Of a DNA stretch of 64,000 nt, positions 2,109 through 29,640 are shown piece after piece. Origin of the DNA: Ulva prolifera (Eukaryota > Chlorophyta > Ulvophyceae > Ulvales > Ulvaceae); NCBI GenBank assembly GCA_023078555.1, contig CM041197.1, forward strand, positions 2,266,501-2,330,500, in the 5' to 3' direction. The translations under genes and the position numbers were made by a program. Positions within the stretch are counted from its first letter, which is position 1. Every line of letters begins with the position of its first letter. The notes beneath the pieces are model-generated. The model worked only from the letters and a program-made list of their open reading frames with translations, was not told the origin of the DNA and searched no databases.

Positions 2109-4053
2109 GGGTCGGGTGTGATCTCCAGTCTCACACACAGAGTCTGGAACTCAGTCGCAATGTGTCCTACACGACCAGGCATCATGTGCATGGCCAGGCC
2201 TGGGGCCAGCCACCATCCCAATGTGTTGAATGATATACCTGGTGCTGCTTCGCTGTACGCTGGGTGGGGAATCAGTGGCGGGGTCGGGTGTGATCTCCAG
2301 TCTCACACACAGAGTCTGGAACTCAGTCGCAATGTGTCCTACACGACCAGGCATCATGTGCATGGCCAGGCCTGGGGCCAGCCACCATCCCAATGTGTTG
2401 AATGATATACCTGGTGCTGCTTCGCTGTACGCTGGGTGGGGAATCAGTGGCGGGGTCGGGTGTGATCTCCAGTCTCACACACAGAGTCTGGAACTCAGTC
2501 ACAATGTGTCCTACACGACCAGGCATCATGTGCATGGCCAGGCCTGGGGCCAGCCACCATCCCAATGTGTTGAATGATATACCTGGTGCTGCTTCGCTGT
2601 ACGCTGGGTGGGGAATCAGTGGCGGGGTCGGGTGTGATCTCCAGTCTCACACACAGAGTCTGGAACTCAGTCGCAATGTGTCCTACACGACCAGGCATCA
2701 TGTGCATGGCCAGGCCTGGGGCCAGCCACCATCCCAATGTGTTGAATGATATACCTGGTGCTACTTCGCTGTACGCTGGGTGGGGAATCAGTGGGGGGGT
2801 CGGGTGTGATCTCCAGTCTCACACACAGAGTCTGGAACTCAGTCGCAATGTGTCCTACACGACCAGGCATCATGTGCATGGCCAGGCCTGGGGCCAGCCA
2901 CCATCCCAATGTGTTGAATGATATACCTGGTGCTACTTCGCTGTACGCTGGGTGGGGAATCAGTGGCGGGGTCGGGTGTGATCTCCAGTCTCACACACAG
3001 AGTCTGGAACTCAGTCGCAATGTGTCCTACACAACCAGGCATCATGTGCATGGCCAGGCCTGGGGCCAGCCACCATCCCAATGTGTTGAATGATATACCT
3101 GGTGCTGCTTCGCTGTACGCTGGGTGGGGAATCAGTGGCGGGGTCGGGTGTGATCTCCAGTCTCACACACAGAGTCTGGAACTCAGTCGCAATGTGTCCT
3201 ACACGACCAGGCATCATGTGCATGGCCAGGCCTGGGGCCAGCCACCATCCCAATGTGTTGAATGATATACCTGGTGCTGCTTCGCTGTACGCTGGGTGGG
3301 GAATCAGTGGCGGGGTCGGGTGTGATCTCCAGTCTCACACACAGAGTCTGGAACTCAGTCACAATGTGTCCTACACGACCAGGCATCATGTGCATGGCCA
3401 GGCCTGGGGCCAGCCACCATCCCAATGTGTTGAATGATATACCTGGTGCTACTTCGCTGTACGCTGGGTGGGGAATCAGTGGCGGGGTCGGGTGTGATCT
3501 CCAGTCTCACACACAGAGTCTGGAACTCAGTCGCAATGTGTCCTACACAACCAGGCATCATGTGCATGGCCAGGCCTGGGGCCAGCCACCATCCCAATGT
3601 GTTGAATGATATACCTGGTGCTGCTTCGCTGTACGCTGGGTGGGGAATCAGTGGCGGGGTCGGGTGTGATCTCCAGTCTCACACACAGAGTCTGGAACTC
3701 AGTCGCAATGTGTCCTACACGACCAGGCATCATGTGCATGGCCAGGCCTGGGGCCAGCCACCATCCCAATGTGTTGAATGATATACCTGGTGCTGCTTCG
3801 CTGTACGCTGGGTGGGGAATCAGTGGCGGGGTCGGGTGTGATCTCCAGTCTCACACACAGAGTCTGGAACTCAGTCACAATGTGTCCTACACGACCAGGC
3901 ATCATGTGCATGGCCAGGCCTGGGGCCAGCCACCATCCCAATGTGTTGAATGATATACCTGGTGCTACTTCGCTGTACGCTGGGTGGGGAATCAGTGGCG
4001 GGGTCGGGTGTGATCTCCAGTCTCACACACAGAGTCTGGAACTCAGTCACAAT
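2109..4053 (+). repeat. 172-bp satellite array, about 11.3 copies, with trimeric higher-order structure
   Basis: A 172-bp unit beginning GTCGGGTGTGATCTCCAG repeats head to tail without spacers from 2109 to about 4053. Copies differ by a few substitutions: CAGTCGCAATG or CAGTCACAATG, CACGACCAGG or CACAACCAGG, GCTGCTTCGC or GCTACTTCGC. From about 2918 these variants recur in a fixed order every three units, so a 516-bp trimer has been duplicated as a block. The unit length is in the range typical of eukaryotic centromeric or subtelomeric satellites, but location cannot be inferred from this window. Repeated 115-codon plus-strand and 80-codon minus-strand frames come from the repeat and are not considered genes. 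Confidence 0.97.
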
Positions 4054-4324
4054 GTTGATGTGAGTGCTGTCATCAACAAGGACTTAAATGTCGGCTAACA
4101 TGTTGTACGAGCAAGTTGCCAATGGCCGGTGCCTATACACACTGAGACACTCGTTCGCCAAGTGGATGTGAGGCCCGGTCTAGGGTTGCTAAGTATACCA
4201 GCAGTGCGTCAGTCTTACAATTTGATGGAAAACTTTGAATCACATCTTGGTCCATGCCACAGCTACAGTATGCATGGACCTCCAGCACTCCGTTACCAAT
4301 TCGGCAGCTCAGCGATGTCACGGT

Positions 4325-18410: not shown

Positions 18411-19234
18411 ATCGATGTAGGCGTGCACACGTCCCACAGCCACCTTGCCACGTCCCATGGATCAAGTTGTTCTCGATTGATGTAATGCATCTTAAGCTGG
18501 AGAAGTGCTAACTGACTGGCCGCTCACTGCCCCGCGTCGACTGTAGCTGCCAAGTCTTAGCAAGGCCCAGAGGTATCAGTCGGGACTCGCAGCTGAGGCC
18601 GCGCCAAAGCTGTACACGGCACATCAGTTTAAGGCCCCGCTAGATGTGATCATGCATCGAGAAGCGACGCGGACCAGCTGTGGTTCGTGTAACAGCCGCG
18701 GCTGGCTCTGTGTGCTACCATTGGCTTCGACAGATCGTTTCCGGCTGCGAGTCCGGTCGGTTGCGTCCATTCAATTTGGTAACCGTCCTAAAAGCTATGG
18801 GTGTAACAGATGTTTCAGCGCGATTACCGGCAACCTGCGTACATGACCCACTCGCAGCTTGCAATACCTACTAGCACCCGTGGCGACAGCGCCGATCGGC
18901 GCAGGGTCATCGCCATTACGGCGAAATCACTGTGTTCGGGTGCCAGAGTCGTTTGCAATCGGACACCGTGCACTAAATCACGTCCGCAAGGCACAGACGT
19001 AGTCGATTTCGATCAACACATGGTGAGGTCGCCGCTCATAACTCGCCACGTAAGGTTGCGCTCATGTGTTATGGGCGACCACCACAGTAGATGGAGGCAG
19101 ACTGCAATCCGCTGTAAGAGGCGACCAGGCGCAAGGCCACGGGCCAGATGATCATGGCGCATCTGTGTCAGTACTAGCGTTGCCACCTGCTTGCAGACCG
19201 TGGCATGGTCCGTGTCTGCGGCAGTACCGAACAT
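18411..19234. other. No gene recognised; right flank of the transposon
   Basis: Short open frames on both strands, none with a motif. If the transposon has terminal inverted repeats, the right one should lie here, but no clear match to the left flank was found by eye. Confidence 0.4.
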
Positions 19235-19990
19235 GTATGTAGTTACACAGGACAGCGGCCGGGAATCGGGCAGTTTTCTTTGAATCCACTCGCAAATCCA
19301 CTCAGTCCTTCATGGCACTGGGCCGGGCACGAGTGCGCAGCACAGCCCTGCCGGTGATGCCAGCCAAATTTCTTTAAAGATTCTTTAAAGATTGAAGTCC
19401 CGCACGGAGCACAATAGCATTCCCTTTGCACAACGCCACACTCAAGCGGCGCAGAGCATTCGTCACAAGAAAACCACGGTTCACAACATGTGGTGTACAC
19501 CACACCAAGATGCATCCTCCGCCAGCCGATTCAAGTCATCCATAGCAGGCTGTCCGAAGCGACAATGCGTCTGATGCGACAACGGCACAAAGCTATATGC
19601 GTTAGGGTCGTACAAACGGTAAGCATTGCGTTTCTGCACGTCTCGCGTCACCGCAGCACCCCCGTCCTCCCGGGCCTCCCGGCCGCAGTAGGTATCAGCA
19701 CAGGGATTCACAATCGACACATCCCCTATGCACAAAGGGTCATCCGGCGGCATAAACATGATGTCCCCCGGTTTCTCTTGGGCCAACGCCCTGAGCACCC
19801 GCTCCAGCCCCTCTGCCTGCGCGGCAGCGGCCTGCTCCCCAGACCCCGCCGCACCCTGGCCACCTTGTACTGCCGCCGCCGCCGGCGCCGCAGCTGCGCC
19901 GAGTCCGGCGCGGGTCGCCCCACATGGGCGCTGTGTCCAGCATTGCAATGCCATGGCCTCGGCGGCCTGAGCATGCATACTATACGCACA
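19235..19990 (-). mobile_element. LINE-type retrotransposon 3' fragment (reverse transcriptase C-terminal end)
   Basis: The minus strand encodes the tail typical of algal and plant non-LTR retrotransposon polyproteins: Gly-Asp-Ile followed by a GDVSIVNP segment, then [20 protein letters not shown], then GQPAMDDLNRLA. An Ala/Gln-rich region precedes it, and a Cys-rich tail (CDECSAPLECG...CYCAPCG) follows in another frame. No upstream catalytic YADD region is present, so it is a 5'-truncated copy, as is usual for LINEs. The downstream sequence (19243-19380) matches a second copy at 26.26-26.8 kb in the same orientation. Confidence 0.75.
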
Positions 19991-20734: not shown

Positions 20735-23700
20735 ATGGAGGCAGTCTTAGCTGAAGCCGTATTAGAAGGTATAATAGAAAATGTGTATGAGCTGTATGAG
20801 CTCTATTGTGGTCGCGAGGAAGCTCTTGCCGCTTTCGCCAGGTGCGAGAACACGTCTCCACATCGATGTCAGCACACGGCGTATTATGCAACGCCGTCAG
20901 GGGCAGTCCCACAACATGTTGAGGAATGTACGCAACGTATACTATGGGCTTGTGGGTACTCTTGGCTGTTCCCCATGCTGTGCGACAAAGAAGGCCATGT
21001 CATGCCGACGCTGTGTATGGATCTGTTTGTCTCGCGTCCACCGCAAGCGTGTAGGGACAGGGCCTATCCCTGATGATCACTTCTGGGACAATCATGGCTG
21101 TGATCGACCAGTGCTGCCTTCTGCTGTGCTGTACTGGATACATGCGATGTAAGCAAACTGATGTAGAGATCTCATCGATCGTTGACCAGCATGCGGACAT
21201 GTGTACAGCGCCGCGGGCGCCAGTGTTGACTGCAGCTGTCGTTGAGGAGCTGTAGCTCCTCAACCCTGTTGAGGAGCATGTGCTGCACGTGCGTGCAGCC
21301 ATGGCAGTAGTGCACAATCCCCTCTCCCCTGTGGGGCCCCCCTGCCAGCAGTTCTGCTGCAATTCCGCTTCATGAAGCCTTTGGATAACTCGTCAGTGGA
21401 CCACAGCTATGGACTACAGCCATGGCAGTACTAGTAGTACACCATGGCACTGTCGCTGGCCCCAGACCACCATCGACCCTGAAATGATATCAGGCGCTGA
21501 CAGCCTGACAATGGTGACTCAAGATGATGTGTCTGTGTGTGTGCGTGTGTGGGTGTGGGTGTGGGTGTGGGTGCGTAGCGATCTGTGTGCGACAACGTTT
21601 TCTGGGCGCGTCATGAGTTTGGTGTGTGTTGCGTGGGTGCACCGTACGTGTCTGGGTTTGTACTTGATCTGCTTGCTTCTTTCGCGGTTTCGCCCGCCTC
21701 GCCGCATTTATCCTTGTACCTCTAGATGATGCCCTGTCTCCCAAGACAATTGACGCTCCCTGCAATTCCAAATCATCTTCAGGTACATTCTGCATGTGGC
21801 ACACATTCTGGAGGGCATCCGGGAGAACATCCCGCAGCGAGCGCTGCCGGTGGCGCTGGACCTGGCCGCCCTGGTCGCCACCGCCCGCGAGAAGAGCGCC
21901 AAATACGCGGGTCGCGGCTTCGTGTCGACAGTGTGGCACCTACGCAGCGAGCGGGTGCGGCCACCCACACGTTACATGCATGTGCATACTATACTGTAGT
22001 ACCTGTCAGCCCCTTCGAGAGCGATGCTCATTCAGTTTTACTCGTCTCAACGCTCGAGCTCATTCATTTCTAATCCAGGTGGAACAGAGGCCCTCAGCAT
22101 GCAGCAAGTGCTGGAGTCGAAATCTGACAGTGCAGCTCACTGTTTTCGCGTCGACTCCACCCCCTCGTCATGTTTGAGCCCAACGACACGACATGTTCCA
22201 ACGCACTGCATACAAAGCTCTACCTCCGCAGACTATGAGCCTGTTGAGTAGCCGTCACGGCCACAGCATGCGGCGGCTGCTGCAGGCTCGGATGGAGACC
22301 CTGATGCAAGGCATCCAGCAGCTGCTGCCCCTACTCACTGTCGCCGTTGCCTCCACCGCCGACGTCTCCGCCGCCGTCGCCGACCTCTCCCGCCGCGCCG
22401 TGGCCCTGCAGGGCTCCAGCTCAGAGGCTGCTGCGCACCTCGGCCACTTACAGGCCGCCGTCTCCGCCGTCGCCTCCACCAGCGCGACCGTGCCCGAGAT
22501 TGAGAATCGCATGATGGACCTGCGGGATAGCATGACGCACCTGCACGATGCAAGCATCCAGACTGTTCTGCAGGCGTACGATGAGCTGCAGGGCACCCTC
22601 GGCCGTGGTTTTGCGGAAGTGAGAGGATCTCTGGACGGCCTCCAGCAGGAAATTGCGTCCATGAGGCGAGAGGTGCTGGTGTCGACCGGAGAGGTGAGCG
22701 CGAACGTGAAGGAGATGCACGCCGACGTGAAGGAAATCATGGGCTACCTGGCAGCCTGCTGCGGCATGAGGGCCACGCTTACTTCTGGCAACTCCCTCAG
22801 GCCAGCAGCAGACCGCATGCTGACAGTGCGTCCCTCATGTACATGCTGTACCAGTGGTGAACAGACAGGTACATTCATGCATGAACTCAATGCATGCGCA
22901 CGGGCCTGCAGTGCGGCTCATGTGTCTCACGAAGAAGACATCACATGCATGTTCAGAGAGCAAAGCACTCTGGAGATCGACGCCGCGCCAGTGGCCAAAG
23001 GAAGTTCGCGCGACAGTACTGACCTCAATCTGGAAGCTGTGGTGTCCATATTCATGATGGGGACATTGTTCAGGGACAGACGATCTCGTTGCCGGCAGAA
23101 TCATCTGCGTCCCCACCCAGCTCATGTCATGATCAGCGGTTTTCAAGTTGTTCCTGAGTTCAAGCATGACACTGTTCAGGCAATCGCTGAGGTGGCTGAA
23201 GGCGACAGTGCAACCGCGGCGCCAGCCCCAGAGGCCACGGAGAAGTGGGCAGAGAAGTTGCAAGAAGCGATTCTCGCAGGGACGGTCTCGATCACAGCAT
23301 GCCTCGTCCTCGGCATGCCCCTCATGCCGCAGGGCCCCCTGCGGCCCGTCACGCTGCCGTGCTGTGGCTTCGTGGTTTCCCACATCGGAGCACAGCGGCT
23401 GCTGGCGCAGCGCAAGTGCTCGTTCTGCCTCAAGTCCATGGCCGGCGATGCTCTCATTGAAGTCAATGACGCAGTCTGTGCGACAGTCGCAGCTGAGGGC
23501 CAAGGCGTCGCGCCCTGTGTGTTCCAGGACAGCGATGTGACGATTGGCGAGCCAATCGGCAAAGGTGGGGAGGCCACGGTCGTAAAGGGGGTGTTCAAGC
23601 GGAAGGACATTGCGGTGAAGCGCGTACCGCTAGCAGACACCCCTGGGGCAGCGGAGATGGCGGGGCTGAGGCAAGTGATCAACGCTTCGTACATCGCCGG

Positions 23701-26700
23701 GGTGGCGAGCCCGCACGTGTGCAAGCTGTACGGCTACTGCTGGGCCGGCTCTGAGGTCTGGTGCGTCACTAGTGGCTGCTAACCGCAGCCCGAGACTTGA
23801 ATTCATCAATTCACACTATGTACTATTGTCAAACATTGCGACAACCCTGCAGCAACTCCGCTGCTGCTGCCCCATGTGGACATCCGTGCTTGACTGTTGC
23901 ATTCAGCTACCATATCATGCTGTCGAGCAGTCACATTGAACCCTGATGGTTGTATATACTATATACAACCATAGTATATGTGCCCGCACCTTGGGTTATG
24001 TCATGATATGCTGCTAACGCTGCAGCATCACGTGGGGCAACCACCCCTCTGCTTGCTATTTTGTGTCAGATGCAACTATTTTGTCGGCATTCGGCATTCC
24101 GAGTCGAAGAGCCTTACAAAATTGAGTCAGCACAGGCTGTACATATGGCTTGTGCACGCCAGCGCATCGCAATGCTGTCCAGGCTCCGCACCATGTATGT
24201 GTTGCAGGCTGCTGATGGAGCTGTGTGAGTCAAACCTTGAAGAGTATATTCGGCAGGTCAGGAAGCGGCACCAGCTTTCTGGGTTGCCACCTCTGGACGC
24301 TGTGAACCTTGGCCTTATGCTGTGCTCTGCGCTGCGTGCTGTGCACCGGCGCGCGCGCTGCGTCCATCTCGATGTCACCCCCCGCAACGTGCTCATTGTG
24401 TCGCATGATCAGGGCCAGATGGAAAGTGACGATGGCCGACTTGTGATGAAAAGTGCAAAGCTGTGCGACTTCGGGCTTGCCCGGCATCTGCCGCAGTGGT
24501 TCAACTCGCTGATGACCGGAACAAAGGGCAAGACGTCTTCAATCGGAGGGGTGGCTGAAGGGACGGCCGGCTTCGCCCCAAAGGAGCAGCTTCTACGCAA
24601 GGGGGAGCGGCGCAGTGACGTATACAGCCTGGGCGCGACCATGTGCTTTGCTCTTACCGGCGAACCCCCATACAGCGGGACACGCACCGACATCGTCGCC
24701 CAGGTGCTCGAGGGTGTGCTCTTCTTGCTGAGCTCGAGCTTTCTGCCAGCAGTATGACACGCGGTGAGGCAGCAATGCCTGAGGTTGTGGTATGTGCACA
24801 TGCATGTGCACAGATATGCAGCCATGCTGCACCGCCTGCCTGTTCTAGCATATTCAGATGTGACTGCAGCTGTCAACCCTGTCGCATGCGAGGACAAGCG
24901 GGCCTGAGGCGAATGTACGTACATCCACCTGTCCATGGACATCTCCTTGCTGATTAGCAGCTGGACGTGCATCCCAGGATTCCGGAATCCTGGGCTTCAG
25001 CAAATGAAGCCTGAGAGCTATGCCCTTCAACTTGAAGCTGTGCAGGGCTCCCCATCGAGGCCCTGACGTATGTCGTGCCAGCCAGCCTGAAGGACCTCCT
25101 GACGACGATGACCGCAGTTCACGCCAAATCAAGACCCCACCTCAGCGCTGTGGAGGAGCGGCTGTTGGAGGTAGGCGCAGAACTGTCGGCAGCGGGCTCC
25201 ACGCCCCGATTCATCATGCCTCTCGGCGTTCGCAACGGCGGCTCGCAGCCCTCCTGTGGCGGTACAAGCCAGGCCCGCGGCAGTGTGGATACAGGTGGCA
25301 TATTGGCCGGAGCTTCTCCGCATGCAGTGGGGGCGGTTCCTGACCTTCCATCGAAAGACCCGCCGTCGCCGCTGACTGCGGCATCTGGGTCTTTGGCGCA
25401 TAAGGCCGCGCCGCCGCATGCGGCCACCGCCGACGCATCTGCCCCGCCAGAGCCCGAGCATTCGATACCAACATCCAAGCCAATGCTATTAGTCTCCTCT
25501 GCAGGCACTGGCAGCTTCGATGTATGCAACGAGACTGTCCATGACCCGGACTCTGTGGATGCAATATTAATGGCAGATGGAGTCGTAAAGTCGGCCACCA
25601 ACCAACACCAGCCCGACAGCTTAGTACCAACTCCAGATGTCCCCACAGAGCAAAATGAGGCTGACGTGCAGCGCATCGGAGCCCGCGACGACGACGGTGC
25701 ATCTATGCAGCAGTCTCAGGTGTGTGCCGAGCTCGAGGCTCTAGAGATCTCTGGCCACGTGTGGGTGATTGTCATTGCCGCTGCCTGTGGCATGTGTTCC
25801 ACTTGGTCTTCAGCTGATCGCAACACACCCGCTAGATCCACATGCGCTCATGCGTACCACAAACAGCATGTGCAGGACGTCAGCCATATTCATACCGTCG
25901 AGGATCTCTTGGTTCATTTGTCTGCCGGCCCGCCCGGCCAATTTCTTGACTTTGACTGGTCCCGCACGCTGCGCCTGACCTCCAACTGGAAGGCACCATC
26001 AGACTCACTGTCAGCGACATGGGCGTACCCACAGCCGTGCGCCGCTGCACAGCTGGGGCAAGGCGGCGGGGTCGTTGCCAACGTGACCCTGGACCTGGCT
26101 GGCAATGGCGCGCTGTTGCTGCACGGCTCAAGCCAGCTCCGTTTACGCAATTGTGTGATTCAAGGTGTGTCTGCATGCCAGCGACAGCAACGCCCTCAAT
26201 AAGGTGGACCCGCGAACCCCTTCACCATGTTGTTCACTGGTAGTGCACACCTCAACATGGCCATATATACAGTTACACAGGACAGATGCCGGGCATTGAG
26301 CCGTTTCTCGGAATCCACTCCGAGTCGCAAATCCACTCAGTCTTTAAAATTTTTCATGGCACTGGGCCGGGCACGAGTGCGCACCACAGCCCTGCCGGTG
26401 ATGCCAGCCAAAGTCCCGCACGGAGCACAATAGAATTCCCTTTGCACAACGCCACGCTCAACGGCGCAAAGCATTCGTCACAAACACACAATGGTCCACC
26501 ACACCACACCGAAACGCAACCTCCGCCGGTCGATTCCAGTGATCCATAACAGGTTGTCCCAAGCGACCGTGCATCTCATGCGGCAACGGCACAAAACTAT
26601 ATGCATCAGGGTCATACGAACGATAAGCATTGCGTTTCTGCACGTCCAGCGTCTCCGCAACACTCCCGTCCTCCTGAGTCGCCCGGCCACGATAGGTATC

Positions 26701-27938
26701 ACCCTGGCCACCTCCTACCGCCGCCGCTGCCGCCGCCGCAGCCGGCGCGGCGTCCAGTATTGGACGCATTAATGCATATATGGCGCGCATGGGCAATACA
26801 CCTCCCGGCCTGTGAATACCGTCAAATCACACCGCAAATCTGTCAATGTCCACAAAGCTGCGCAGAGGGTCGGCCAAGATTCTGTAAGCCTGCTGCCCGC
26901 TACCGCTGTCGACGCGCTCCCTGTACATGTCCGCTAGTTATGTACACCCTTTCAACAAGCCATGATTGATCAAAGATCTTTCGAATGCATGCAGGGGGTC
27001 GCGTCGCATGTGAAGGCCCTGACTGCCACGTAGAGCTCACTGATGTGAGATTCGTGCGCTGCAGCCTGGCGGCGCGCGGCGGCGCGAAAGCCACCATCAC
27101 TGGTGGCCACGCGTTTCCGGCTGAGAACTCCCCTCACTGGCTATTCAATGTGGAAGGCACGGGCACCATTGTGCATGCCAGCAAATTCAGCCTCGCTGGG
27201 AGCCTTGCTGTGCATGGCGGCGCCACCTTCACTGGGAAGCGCGTGCACATCAAACTTGAGACTGGCAGCACGTGGGGGATCTACGCCGCTGGCGATGGCA
27301 GCCGCGTCTCCATGGCCGAATCGTGCGTTTTGCTTGGCGCCGAAGTGCTCGCCTCGGATCGGCGCGGCGTGGGCGTGAGAGACAAGGCTGAGGTAGAATT
27401 GACAAAATTCACAGTGTCGCGTATGCCGAGGGGTGTCGAGGTGTCTGCAGGTGCACTCGTGAAGCTGCGAGACTGCACTGTAGACGCGGCGGAAGATGGG
27501 TTATGGGTGAAGGGGGAAGAAACACGAGTCGACGCTGCAGGGGGCCGCATTTCTGGGCGTGCAGCGGCTGTAGCCATTGCCGCATCTGTGGCTGGCCGTA
27601 ATACACAATTTTCGCAATGCCACATAGGCGAGCATCGCGTATTTGATGATTTTCCGCAGCAGCTTGCTGATCCACATGCAAGCGCTGATGGCTTGCATCA
27701 GAATTCGAATCAGGTGCGTTCACAAGCAAGTGCATTTCTTGAGCGTTGTCAGATTTCAATGAATCCATGCGCGCCATCAAATCTAACAAATGTCATGAAA
27801 ATTCAAGCCGTGGAGAGCCGTGGAGAGCCAGACCGCTGTGTAACACAACCCAATCAAGTACGTGCTTTAGATTGTTGCACACGGGCGCGCCAGCATAAAG
27901 TCGCTGCCAGCGCACCAACCTTTTTTTCAGAAACATGA
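20735..27938 (+). CDS. Multi-domain protein kinase with N-terminal helical bundle, U-box-like motif and beta-helix
   Basis: Eight exons with matching phases: 20735-20841, 21783-21954, 22232-22825, 23180-23760, 24208-24713, 25046-25719, 25876-26164, 26995-27938 (1288 aa). Residues 1-93 are helical ([20 protein letters not shown]) and 94-291 form a long coiled coil. About 350-375 is a U-box/RING-like Cys motif (LPCCGF...KCSFC). The kinase domain (about 412-700) has the Gly loop IGKGGEAT, Lys438 in [14 protein letters not shown] (Asp540), Asp572 in DFG, and [12 protein letters not shown] is HLD and the usual Lys after it is Thr, but the Asp, Asn and DFG residues are intact, so it may be active. 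A Pro/Ala-rich linker follows, then a parallel beta-helix (repeated short strands, for example [13 protein letters not shown]). The helical-bundle-plus-kinase order resembles plant MLKL/RPW8-like proteins, but that homology is only a hypothesis. The last exon may end earlier, at a donor near 27716. Confidence 0.8.
21241..21264. repeat. Short inverted repeat within first kinase intron
   Basis: GTTGAGGAGCT and AGCTCCTCAAC are separated by two bases, and the left arm recurs once more immediately downstream (21269). It forms a stable stem in intron 1. Confidence 0.8.
21530..21575 (+). repeat. GT-rich microsatellite
   Basis: A degenerate run of GTGTGTGTGCGTGTGTGGGTGTGG type located in intron 1 of the kinase gene, just upstream of a copy of dispersed repeat family A. 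Confidence 0.85.
21660..21725 (-). repeat. Dispersed repeat family A, copy 2
   Basis: On the minus strand it reads GTACAAGGATAAATGCGGCG, then GGCGGGCGAAACCGCGAAAG, matching the family A head. It lies in intron 1 of the kinase gene and is followed on that strand by a CA-rich tail (the GT run). Confidence 0.65.
23948..23970. repeat. Perfect 23-bp palindrome in a kinase intron
   Basis: GGTTGTATATA and TATATACAACC flank a single central C in intron 4 of the kinase gene. Confidence 0.9.
24973..24994. repeat. Perfect 22-bp palindrome in a kinase intron
   Basis: CCCAGGATTCC and GGAATCCTGGG abut without a loop in intron 5 of the kinase gene. Confidence 0.9.
26262..26800 (-). mobile_element. LINE-type retrotransposon 3' fragment inside kinase intron 7
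   Basis: A second copy of the 19.2-kb element in the same orientation. The minus strand encodes a [12 protein letters not shown] segment, then [20 protein letters not shown], then [14 protein letters not shown]. It shares long nucleotide stretches with the other copy (for example CACTGGGCCGGGCACGAGTG and the downstream region). It fills most of the 830-bp intron between the two beta-helix exons, so insertion was probably tolerated because it fell inside an intron. Confidence 0.75.
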
Positions 27939-27939
27939 G

Positions 27940-28079
<140 letters not shown>

Positions 28080-28194: not shown

Positions 28195-28574
28195 GACGGG
28201 GCGACAGTGCAGGATGTCAGCCGCATTCGCACCGTGAAGGATCTTCTGATCAAGAAGATCCTCTGGATCACCTGGCGGTCAGCCAACAAGGCGACAAGTT
28301 TGATTCTCAAGCTGTCCTGAAGATGACGGATTGCCGTGTCCATAAGGTGCCCATCGGCATCAGGATCACAAGCGATGCTTGCGCGAATCTCTACGACTGT
28401 GTGGTGGAAGAGGTCGGAGATGGGCTCTGCATTGAGGCGGGTGGCGAGGCATGGCCATGTGTCACGAGAGCTGAGGCGATGGGCTGCCGCTTCCATGGCA
28501 GCAACTCGTCAGTTGTCTATGCCAAACCGGAGCTCAGCGCAAACGTGACCTTCGAGCGATGTGAGATGGTGTAG
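28195..28574 (+). pseudogene. Degenerate copy of the beta-helix exon
   Basis: It begins with a preserved splice acceptor, GTGCAG, then GATGTCAGCCGCATTCGCAC, matching the acceptor and first codons of exon 7 at 25876 ([12 protein letters not shown] there, DVSRIRTVKDLL here). A small inverted duplication (AGGATCTTCT...AGAAGATCCT, 28238-28262) then shifts the frame. After it the frame reads AVSQQGDKFDSQAVLKMTDC and a beta-helix-like tail with repeated strands (ANLYDCVVEEVGDGLCIEAG) up to a stop at 28574. It is either a decayed paralogue or, less likely, extra terminal exons of the kinase gene. Confidence 0.6.
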
Positions 28575-29019: not shown

Positions 29020-29640
29020 AGTTCCATATCATCTGCAGGTACATTTTGCATTAAGCGGACGACCCCTGAAGGCTACGCACTCGTGCAAGGGTTCCGGTAG
29101 CAGCCCTCGCTGATGTGGCGCTTTCCAGCCGGAAGGACCTCCCGACACCGATCCCTGCCGCTGCAGCAGACTCGAGGCCCCTCCTCAGCGCTGTGGATTA
29201 TCGGCTGTTGGAGATCGGCGGAGATCTATCGGCAGCGGGCTCCATGCCCCGATTCGTCACGCCTCTTTTAATTCGTGCCATGGCGGCTCGCACCGGCACC
29301 CCTCCCGTGGCAGTACAAACCGGGCCCCTTGTATCGCCATATGCATGGGGCCACACCGCCGTCAGCGACACATGAGGCCGCGCCGCCGCATGCGCACACC
29401 TCCGGCGCTCCTGGGCCGCCGGAGCCCGAGCATTCAATGCTGTCATTCGAGCCATTGTTGTGCTTCTCTTCTTCAGGCATTGGCAGCGCCGATGTTTGCA
29501 ACGAGACTGCCGACGGTCCGCCCTGTGGCTCTGCGGGTGCAATGGCAGCTGCCACAGGGAAGGCGACCACTGACAAACACCAACCCGATAGCTCAGAACT
29601 ATCTTCAGAGGCATCTGCGAATTCAGCCATGCATGCAGGG
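29020..29640 (+). pseudogene. Degenerate copy of kinase exons 2 and 6
   Basis: 29005-29060 resembles the acceptor region of exon 2 (21750-21800), including the CAGGTACATT splice junction. 29095-29640 resembles exon 6 (25070-25690): the peptide RPLLSAVDYRLLEIGGDLSA here corresponds to [20 protein letters not shown] there, and the downstream Pro/Ala/Ser linker is also shared. The kinase exons between them are missing, so the copy is deleted and rearranged and cannot encode an intact kinase. Confidence 0.65.

Follow-up and report, generated by a model that had tools for sequence, protein, structure and literature searches.

The window analysed here is a stretch of 64,000 nucleotides (positions 2266501–2330500) on contig CM041197.1 (C2 below) of the green alga Ulva prolifera. 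At positions 20735–27938 of its plus strand lies a predicted gene for a protein kinase that ends in a right-handed β-helix. We consider it just short of an even call that this gene belongs to an expanded family of probably intracellular, multi-domain receptor-like kinases, in which the β-helix might act as the sensor for variable ligands. One outward face of the β-helix diversifies between recent tandem copies, the genes are clustered and the kinase is conserved, a combination that fits a recognition receptor. An initial annotation, made from the letters of the window alone, had proposed a possibly undescribed signalling or immune receptor, and the tandem expansion and the diversifying β-helix face of the paralogs strengthen this proposal.

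Gene structure and domain organisation

The predicted gene has eight exons and seven GT-AG introns. Its exons join in phase into 1301 codons without an internal stop, rather than the approximately 1288 codons counted initially; the start, the stop and the eight-exon layout of the initial annotation agree with the spliced model, the exon borders of which were corrected by comparison with paralogs. The exons are as follows.

20735..20841, plus strand: exon 1, first N-terminal segment (amino acids 1–36), with the ATG start and the donor CAG/GTGCGA
21783..21954, plus strand: exon 2, N-terminal segment (amino acids 36–93), with the acceptor TTCAG/GTACAT and the donor CGG/GTGCGG
22232..22825, plus strand: exon 3, helix and coiled-coil-like region (amino acids 94–291), from paralog identity and a heptad-like hydrophobic pattern
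23180..23760, plus strand: exon 4, RING/U-box-like segment (about 23309–23506) and kinase N-lobe (from about 23540), amino acids 292–485, from the paralog acceptor and an Rtf2 RING match below the cut-off
24208..24713, plus strand: exon 5, kinase catalytic core (amino acids 485–654), with HLD at 24365–24373, Thr at 24377–24379, and DFG
25046..25758, plus strand: exon 6, end of the kinase C-lobe and Ser/Pro/Ala-rich linker (amino acids 654–891), from paralog identity and composition
25876..26164, plus strand: exon 7, start of the β-helix (amino acids 892–988), from paralog identity
26995..27938, plus strand: exon 8, right-handed β-helix coils and C-terminus (amino acids 988–1301), from the PF13229 match over the spliced β-helix

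Likeness to exon 1 was seen in three of the eight paralog stretches inspected (L055, L050 and L049), two of the eight being very short. Identity to the paralogs L055 and L056 is 53% and 38% for exon 2 and 47% and 49% for exon 3 (28–51% over the genome matches), and 41–45% with both for the C-lobe end in exon 6; exon 7 is 51–55% identical to both units of L055 and 28% to L056. Because six paralog loci align at the splice sites, an apparently long third exon is really two exons, separated by an intron with the donor ACA/GTGCGT at 22826 and an acceptor before 23180 (agreement judged by eye). GTGCG or GTGTG donors and GCAG acceptors recall a green alga, and the genome has 38 chlorophyll a/b-binding matches (best E 1.2e-49), in keeping with a photosynthetic eukaryote. 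Without splicing, one open frame (22178–23782) already unites the coil, the U-box-like segment and the kinase N-lobe, and a second (25036–26202, 388 codons) unites the kinase C-lobe end, the linker and the first β-helix coils; the kinase fold, spread over exons 4–6, ties the remaining pieces together. With these uninterrupted frames and the recurrence of the same order elsewhere in the genome, the idea of a single multi-domain kinase holds up, and the gene itself is real. Its 3' end is less sure: an alternative donor CAG/GTGCGT at about 27714, noticed by eye, could remove the last codons and splice toward a decayed unit at about 28203–28574. A long run of AT dinucleotides (27945–28078) directly follows the stop codon.

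The predicted protein consists, in this order, of a helical and coiled N-terminus, a RING/U-box-like segment, a kinase, a linker and a right-handed β-helix. The spliced kinase domain matches the Pfam models Pkinase (E 2.2e-25) and PK_Tyr_Ser-Thr (E 1.9e-22), and the best 60 of its 509 matches in the Protein Data Bank (PDB) are a mixture headed by EGFR, ULK3, MLK4 and SYK. The VAIK Lys, the catalytic Asp and DFG are present, and the third Gly of the G-loop is Ala; the motif rows also confirm the replacement of HRD by HLD and of the next Lys by Thr, as described initially. The C-terminal β-helix proposed there is likewise well founded, since the spliced domain matches PF13229 above the Pfam cut-off (E 1.8e-6, 28.1 bits versus 25.9). 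In a nine-row alignment of family β-helices (A4), eight rows match PF13229 at E 0.01 (best 8.7e-14), the exception being the window's own row of 219 residues. A PDB sequence search for relatives of the β-helix gave no match at E 0.1, and glycan binding by this domain, which had been suggested, is unsupported. Neither NB-ARC or NACHT nor leucine-rich repeats (LRRs) were matched by Pfam in the exon frames or spliced domains of the gene. A crude hydropathy scan noticed no signal-peptide-like start, and the protein is probably intracellular.

A kinase and β-helix family across the genome

We searched the genome (88.9 Mb in 44 contigs) with exon frames of three parts of the gene and obtained 36 matches for the kinase, 42 for the β-helix and 54 for the U-box-like and N-terminal part, mostly at about 35–55% identity, a similarity that we judge to be far above chance. 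For the order of the parts, 34 of the 36 kinase rows were used (the other two are second pieces of the same genes) together with all 42 β-helix rows; the 54 rows were split into U-box-like and N-terminal ones, with the window row in both, and the upstream distances of the window gene were set by hand, one open frame containing its pieces. A U-box-like piece lies upstream of the kinase in 27 of the 34 places. Among those 27, the N-terminus is present in 23, a β-helix follows downstream on the same strand in 19, and both accompany the kinase in 16, so that all four parts stand in order at 16 of the 34 kinase places. Of these 19 places with a downstream β-helix, 18 have it at 1.8–2.4 kb from the kinase.

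Copies occur on contigs C1, C2, C4, C7, C9 and C36, with clusters at C1:12.25–12.45 Mb, C1:11.40–11.42 Mb and C9:0.05–1.16 Mb. At C1:12.25–12.45 Mb, minus-strand kinase and β-helix pieces (about 35–49% identity) stand amid the plus-strand kinase genes, which suggests convergent gene pairs. On C2 itself, a fragment about 190 kb from the window gene (L045, C2:2100027) is 91–97% identical to its kinase and linker exons.

The catalytic loops were compared over 19 distinct motif rows, with identical rows collapsed and the window gene and its fragment (L001, L021, L031 and L045) left out. The catalytic Asp is retained in 18 rows, Asn in 17 and DFG in 16; therefore, most of the kinases look able to bind Mg-ATP, and a few are decayed. 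The Arg of HRD is Leu in all 19, and the next Lys is Thr in 14, Lys in three, Ala in one and Ser in one, Thr being common in the expanded clade. Two variants were noticed by eye: L048 has the N-terminus ahead of another kinase with HRDVKPSN, and the copy on C7, L044, is divergent and carries HLDLKPEN.

The genome also contains 33 NB-ARC matches, many of them clustered and in long open frames (C6:2.3–2.6 Mb, C4:7.32–7.53 Mb, C8:5.2 Mb and C1:4.7–4.88 Mb). They probably represent a repertoire resembling nucleotide-binding leucine-rich repeat receptors (NLRs) or STAND proteins, separate from the kinase and β-helix family. One member of the latter, at C4:7375887, sits inside the NB-ARC cluster at C4:7.32–7.53 Mb.

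A diversifying face on the β-helix

Four recent tandem copies on C1 were compared exon by exon in six pairs each. The ratio of nonsynonymous to synonymous substitution rates (dN/dS) is 0.20–0.34 in the exon of the U-box-like segment and N-lobe, 0.13–0.35 in the kinase exon and 0.71–1.12 in the main β-helix exon, for pairs with dS of 0.01–1.2, some of which rest on few changes. We laid out the main β-helix exon as nine coils of 17 register positions, with outward residues inferred from the coil pattern, and counted nonsynonymous (pN) and synonymous (pS) changes as simple Nei-Gojobori proportions summed over pairs. Set 1 comprised all four units with at least 82% identity and left out the copy at C1:12384631, the frame of which is interrupted. 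Set 2, a replicate of the register test, comprised second units, three at first and then five of at least seven; the five-unit test dropped the positions from 210 on.

In set 1, 18 of 27 sites vary at the outward positions of strand 1 (2, 4 and 5), versus 8 of 45 at those of strand 2 (p 4e-5), and positions 2 and 4 vary in seven of nine coils each. The ratio of pN on this face to the exon-wide pS is 3.0 (95% interval 1.9–4.8), and that of the rest of the exon is 0.54 (0.35–0.87). The three units of set 2 gave 15 of 27 versus 7 of 45 variable sites (p 5e-4), with ratios of 2.9 (1.6–4.9) on the face versus 1.00 (0.63–1.70) in the rest; with five units, the numbers were 18 of 27 versus 10 of 42 (p 5e-4) and 2.55 (1.56–3.91) versus 0.76 (0.51–1.16). 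Positions 2 and 4 led again in the five units (seven of nine each) and are the two most variable positions in both sets. Across the wider family, including the window gene, the entropy is 1.87 on the face versus 1.37 (p 0.0015; eight of the nine rows of A4). A pN/pS above 1 was thus found on the putatively exposed face of the β-helix in the C1 tandem paralogs. If constraint were only relaxed, pN would not be expected to exceed pS on one strand with the other outward strand spared. One outward strand face of the β-helix therefore has the appearance of a surface that diversifies for recognition, comparable to that of LRRs.

Several observations weigh against the receptor reading. The window gene is a divergent singleton with about 40% identity in the β-helix and too distant for the selection test, which covers the C1 tandem copies; the evidence for both the family and the selection comes from one genome. 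As the register was chosen by eye from set 1, the test on that set is post hoc. In set 2, the intervals given above do not place the remainder of the exon clearly below 1, the loops are also fast (about 1.3 with three units and about 1.0 with five), and the table of amino-acid versus silent changes for three units is not significant (p 0.21). Taking pS from the face sites themselves lowers the face ratio to 2.5 in set 1 and to 1.8 and 1.5 in set 2 with three and five units. The first β-helix exon of the four C1 copies is not hypervariable (dN/dS 0.35–0.65). L051 combines N-terminus, coil and β-helix with no kinase seen by eye, and L019 and L042 resemble pseudokinases. Finally, a 19-residue window is usually marked as hydrophobic above a hydropathy of 1.6, and two windows of the protein exceed this value, at amino acids 321–340 (1.99) and 124–142 (1.73), so that the protein may contact a membrane.

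Alternative explanations

The family might instead be a hybrid of ubiquitin ligase and kinase, in which the β-helix selects cellular substrates, the RING/U-box-like segment marks them, and the diversification serves substrates rather than defence. FBXO11 is a precedent, as an F-box protein whose beta-helix picks substrate proteins. The motif is conserved family-wide: ten columns are invariant in 10 sequences, including C41, G45, P47, C62, S67 and C83, and weak RING matches recur, to Rtf2 in five of the ten members and to zf-C3HC4_3 in two. For the window gene, the Rtf2 RING match reaches E 0.015 and 15.1 bits versus a cut-off of 27.4, a second value for exon 4 being E 0.014, also below the cut-off. 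No U-box or RING model was matched above the Pfam cut-off, however, and solved structures gave no convincing match: eight of ten matches in the PDB profile search are PriB, and a single RING ligase appears at E 0.99. The U-box-like motif of the initial annotation is therefore recurrent and weakly RING-like, and we name it only a likeness; a U-box as an established domain is not what these searches returned. Scans for relatives with two short patterns each gave 23 matches in viral and 21 in prokaryotic contigs, none of which was confirmed. A face that changes fast between tandem copies agrees better with a ligand arms race than with stable substrates, and we regard the ligase hybrid as unlikely.

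Somewhat less likely again is a family of receptors for self/non-self recognition or mating compatibility instead of immunity against parasites. Diversifying change and tandem clusters would suit either use. A link to a mating locus was not seen, none having been searched for, and the copies are spread over the six contigs named above.

We give slightly lower credence still to a cell-death kinase of the MLKL/HeLo type, in which the kinase frees an N-terminal four-helix bundle that permeabilises membranes. HeLo/4HB homologs are described from fungi and plants in two reviews (PMC10197012, PMC10952240). The N-terminus of the window protein looks helical by pattern and stands before the kinase, and a conserved hydrophobic stretch lies at amino acids 124–142; with hhalign, a short match to MLKL falls at equivalent positions (49–80 to 50–81). 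Its relation to MLKL or RPW8, as initially suggested, was nevertheless not borne out. The N-terminus matches no Pfam family above the cut-off, and no MLKL_N or RPW8 match was found for it up to E 5; RPW8 is absent from the complete Pfam lists of this N-terminus and two relatives, and nine aligned members gave no support for MLKL or RPW8 among the best 25 of 51 families. MLKL is also absent among the ten matches listed by the PDB profile search. Alignment with mouse and human MLKL by hhalign scored 13.8 (probability 0.4%), inside the range of 100 column-shuffled controls (mean 10.6, maximum 18.7; one reversed control was also run), so that a relation to MLKL is not supported. A genome search with MLKL_N matched two places, both elsewhere, and, being run exon by exon, it may overlook a domain divided among three exons. 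Profile searches against RPW8, HeLo and MLKL by Pfam, PDB profile and hhalign thus gave no link to a helical-bundle family, and together with the genome search they leave homology of the N-terminus to MLKL or RPW8 unsupported at the sequence level. A different gene, L057 (C1:2442017–2442340), has a weak MLKL_N-like N-terminal match (E 0.0052, below the cut-off) followed by WD40 repeats, which recalls fungal HeLo-type designs.

That kinase and β-helix are two adjacent genes merely duplicating together is very improbable, given the near-constant downstream spacing and the 388-codon frame, which runs from the kinase C-lobe end into the first coils.

A possible mechanism and its relation to known receptors

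If the receptor reading is correct, the β-helix would bind variable ligands along its strand 1 face, most likely proteins of a parasite, a virus or a rival strain. The coiled N-terminus would assemble the protein into oligomers, and ligand binding would release or cluster the kinase, which would then phosphorylate a target; the RING/U-box-like segment might couple the signal to ubiquitination. The working logic would resemble that of an NLR or a receptor kinase, with a diversifying repeat sensor, a conserved output and clustered genes. More tentatively than for the gene itself, we suggest an algal receptor class in which the right-handed β-helix is a hypervariable recognition scaffold coupled to a kinase and to a RING/U-box-like module; its genes would be clustered and rapidly diversifying and would exist alongside a distinct NB-ARC repertoire.

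Right-handed β-helices are known as intracellular binding modules from FBXO10, FBXO11 and SHCBP1, and in FBXO10 and FBXO11 the module stands beside a ubiquitination domain; unlike the window gene, the latter two have an F-box instead of a RING/U-box-like segment and no kinase. With plant receptor-like kinases, the window gene shares a kinase that matches the Tyr/Ser-Thr model with the HRD Arg lost and is coupled to a ligand-type repeat domain. It differs from them in its putative C-terminal sensor and in the β-helix in place of LRRs; the crude hydropathy scan noticed no signal-peptide-like start. In MLKL, HeLo and RPW8 proteins, too, an N-terminal segment of helical appearance precedes a kinase or a signalling core, but no sequence relation was found, and the window kinase keeps the catalytic Asp and DFG. 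Plant hypervariable NLRs, as described in one report (PMC8226289), are likewise clustered and change fast at surface residues of a C-terminal repeat domain, whereas the window gene has a central kinase, a β-helix as its repeat and no match to NB-ARC or LRR. NLRs from a chlorophyte, Chromochloris, are already published (PMC7145615). No description of the kinase, U-box-like and β-helix architecture was found in titles or the beginnings of abstracts among the literature matches listed, a coverage mostly outside subscription papers.

To our knowledge, hypervariable recognition scaffolds are few, chiefly LRRs and immunoglobulin folds. A β-helix that diversifies coil by coil on one strand face would add another, and with it possibly a novel kind of receptor by which self is distinguished from intruders. 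It would also give algae a receptor system whose part in meetings with viruses, parasites or symbionts could be studied. Because the register identifies the variable residues, binding tests can target them directly.

Other features of the window

Three further features lie within or beside the gene.

26262..26760, strand not assigned: copy of a dispersed repeat in intron 7, outside the protein, from genome matches
28203..28574, plus strand: remnant of a decayed second β-helix unit, partly out of frame, with the left edge set by eye
29085..29589, plus strand: decayed duplicate of the exon of the kinase C-lobe end and linker, its two pieces being 56% and 48% identical

The intron 7 repeat has at least 52 matches in the genome including itself, the others at 74–89% identity (scoring covered 40 of the 978 initial candidates), and a second copy lies upstream of the gene at 19232–19697. 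The β-helix remnant is 29% identical to the window's own coils over 28272–28568 (E 6e-8), and L055 keeps a full second unit downstream. Ten other open reading frames of the window, chosen among those of at least 180 codons, were compared with Pfam: nine had no match at E 0.01, and the tenth had a collagen-like match below the cut-off. At positions 2109–4055, the window also carries a tandem array of units of about 172 bases with approximately 99% identity.

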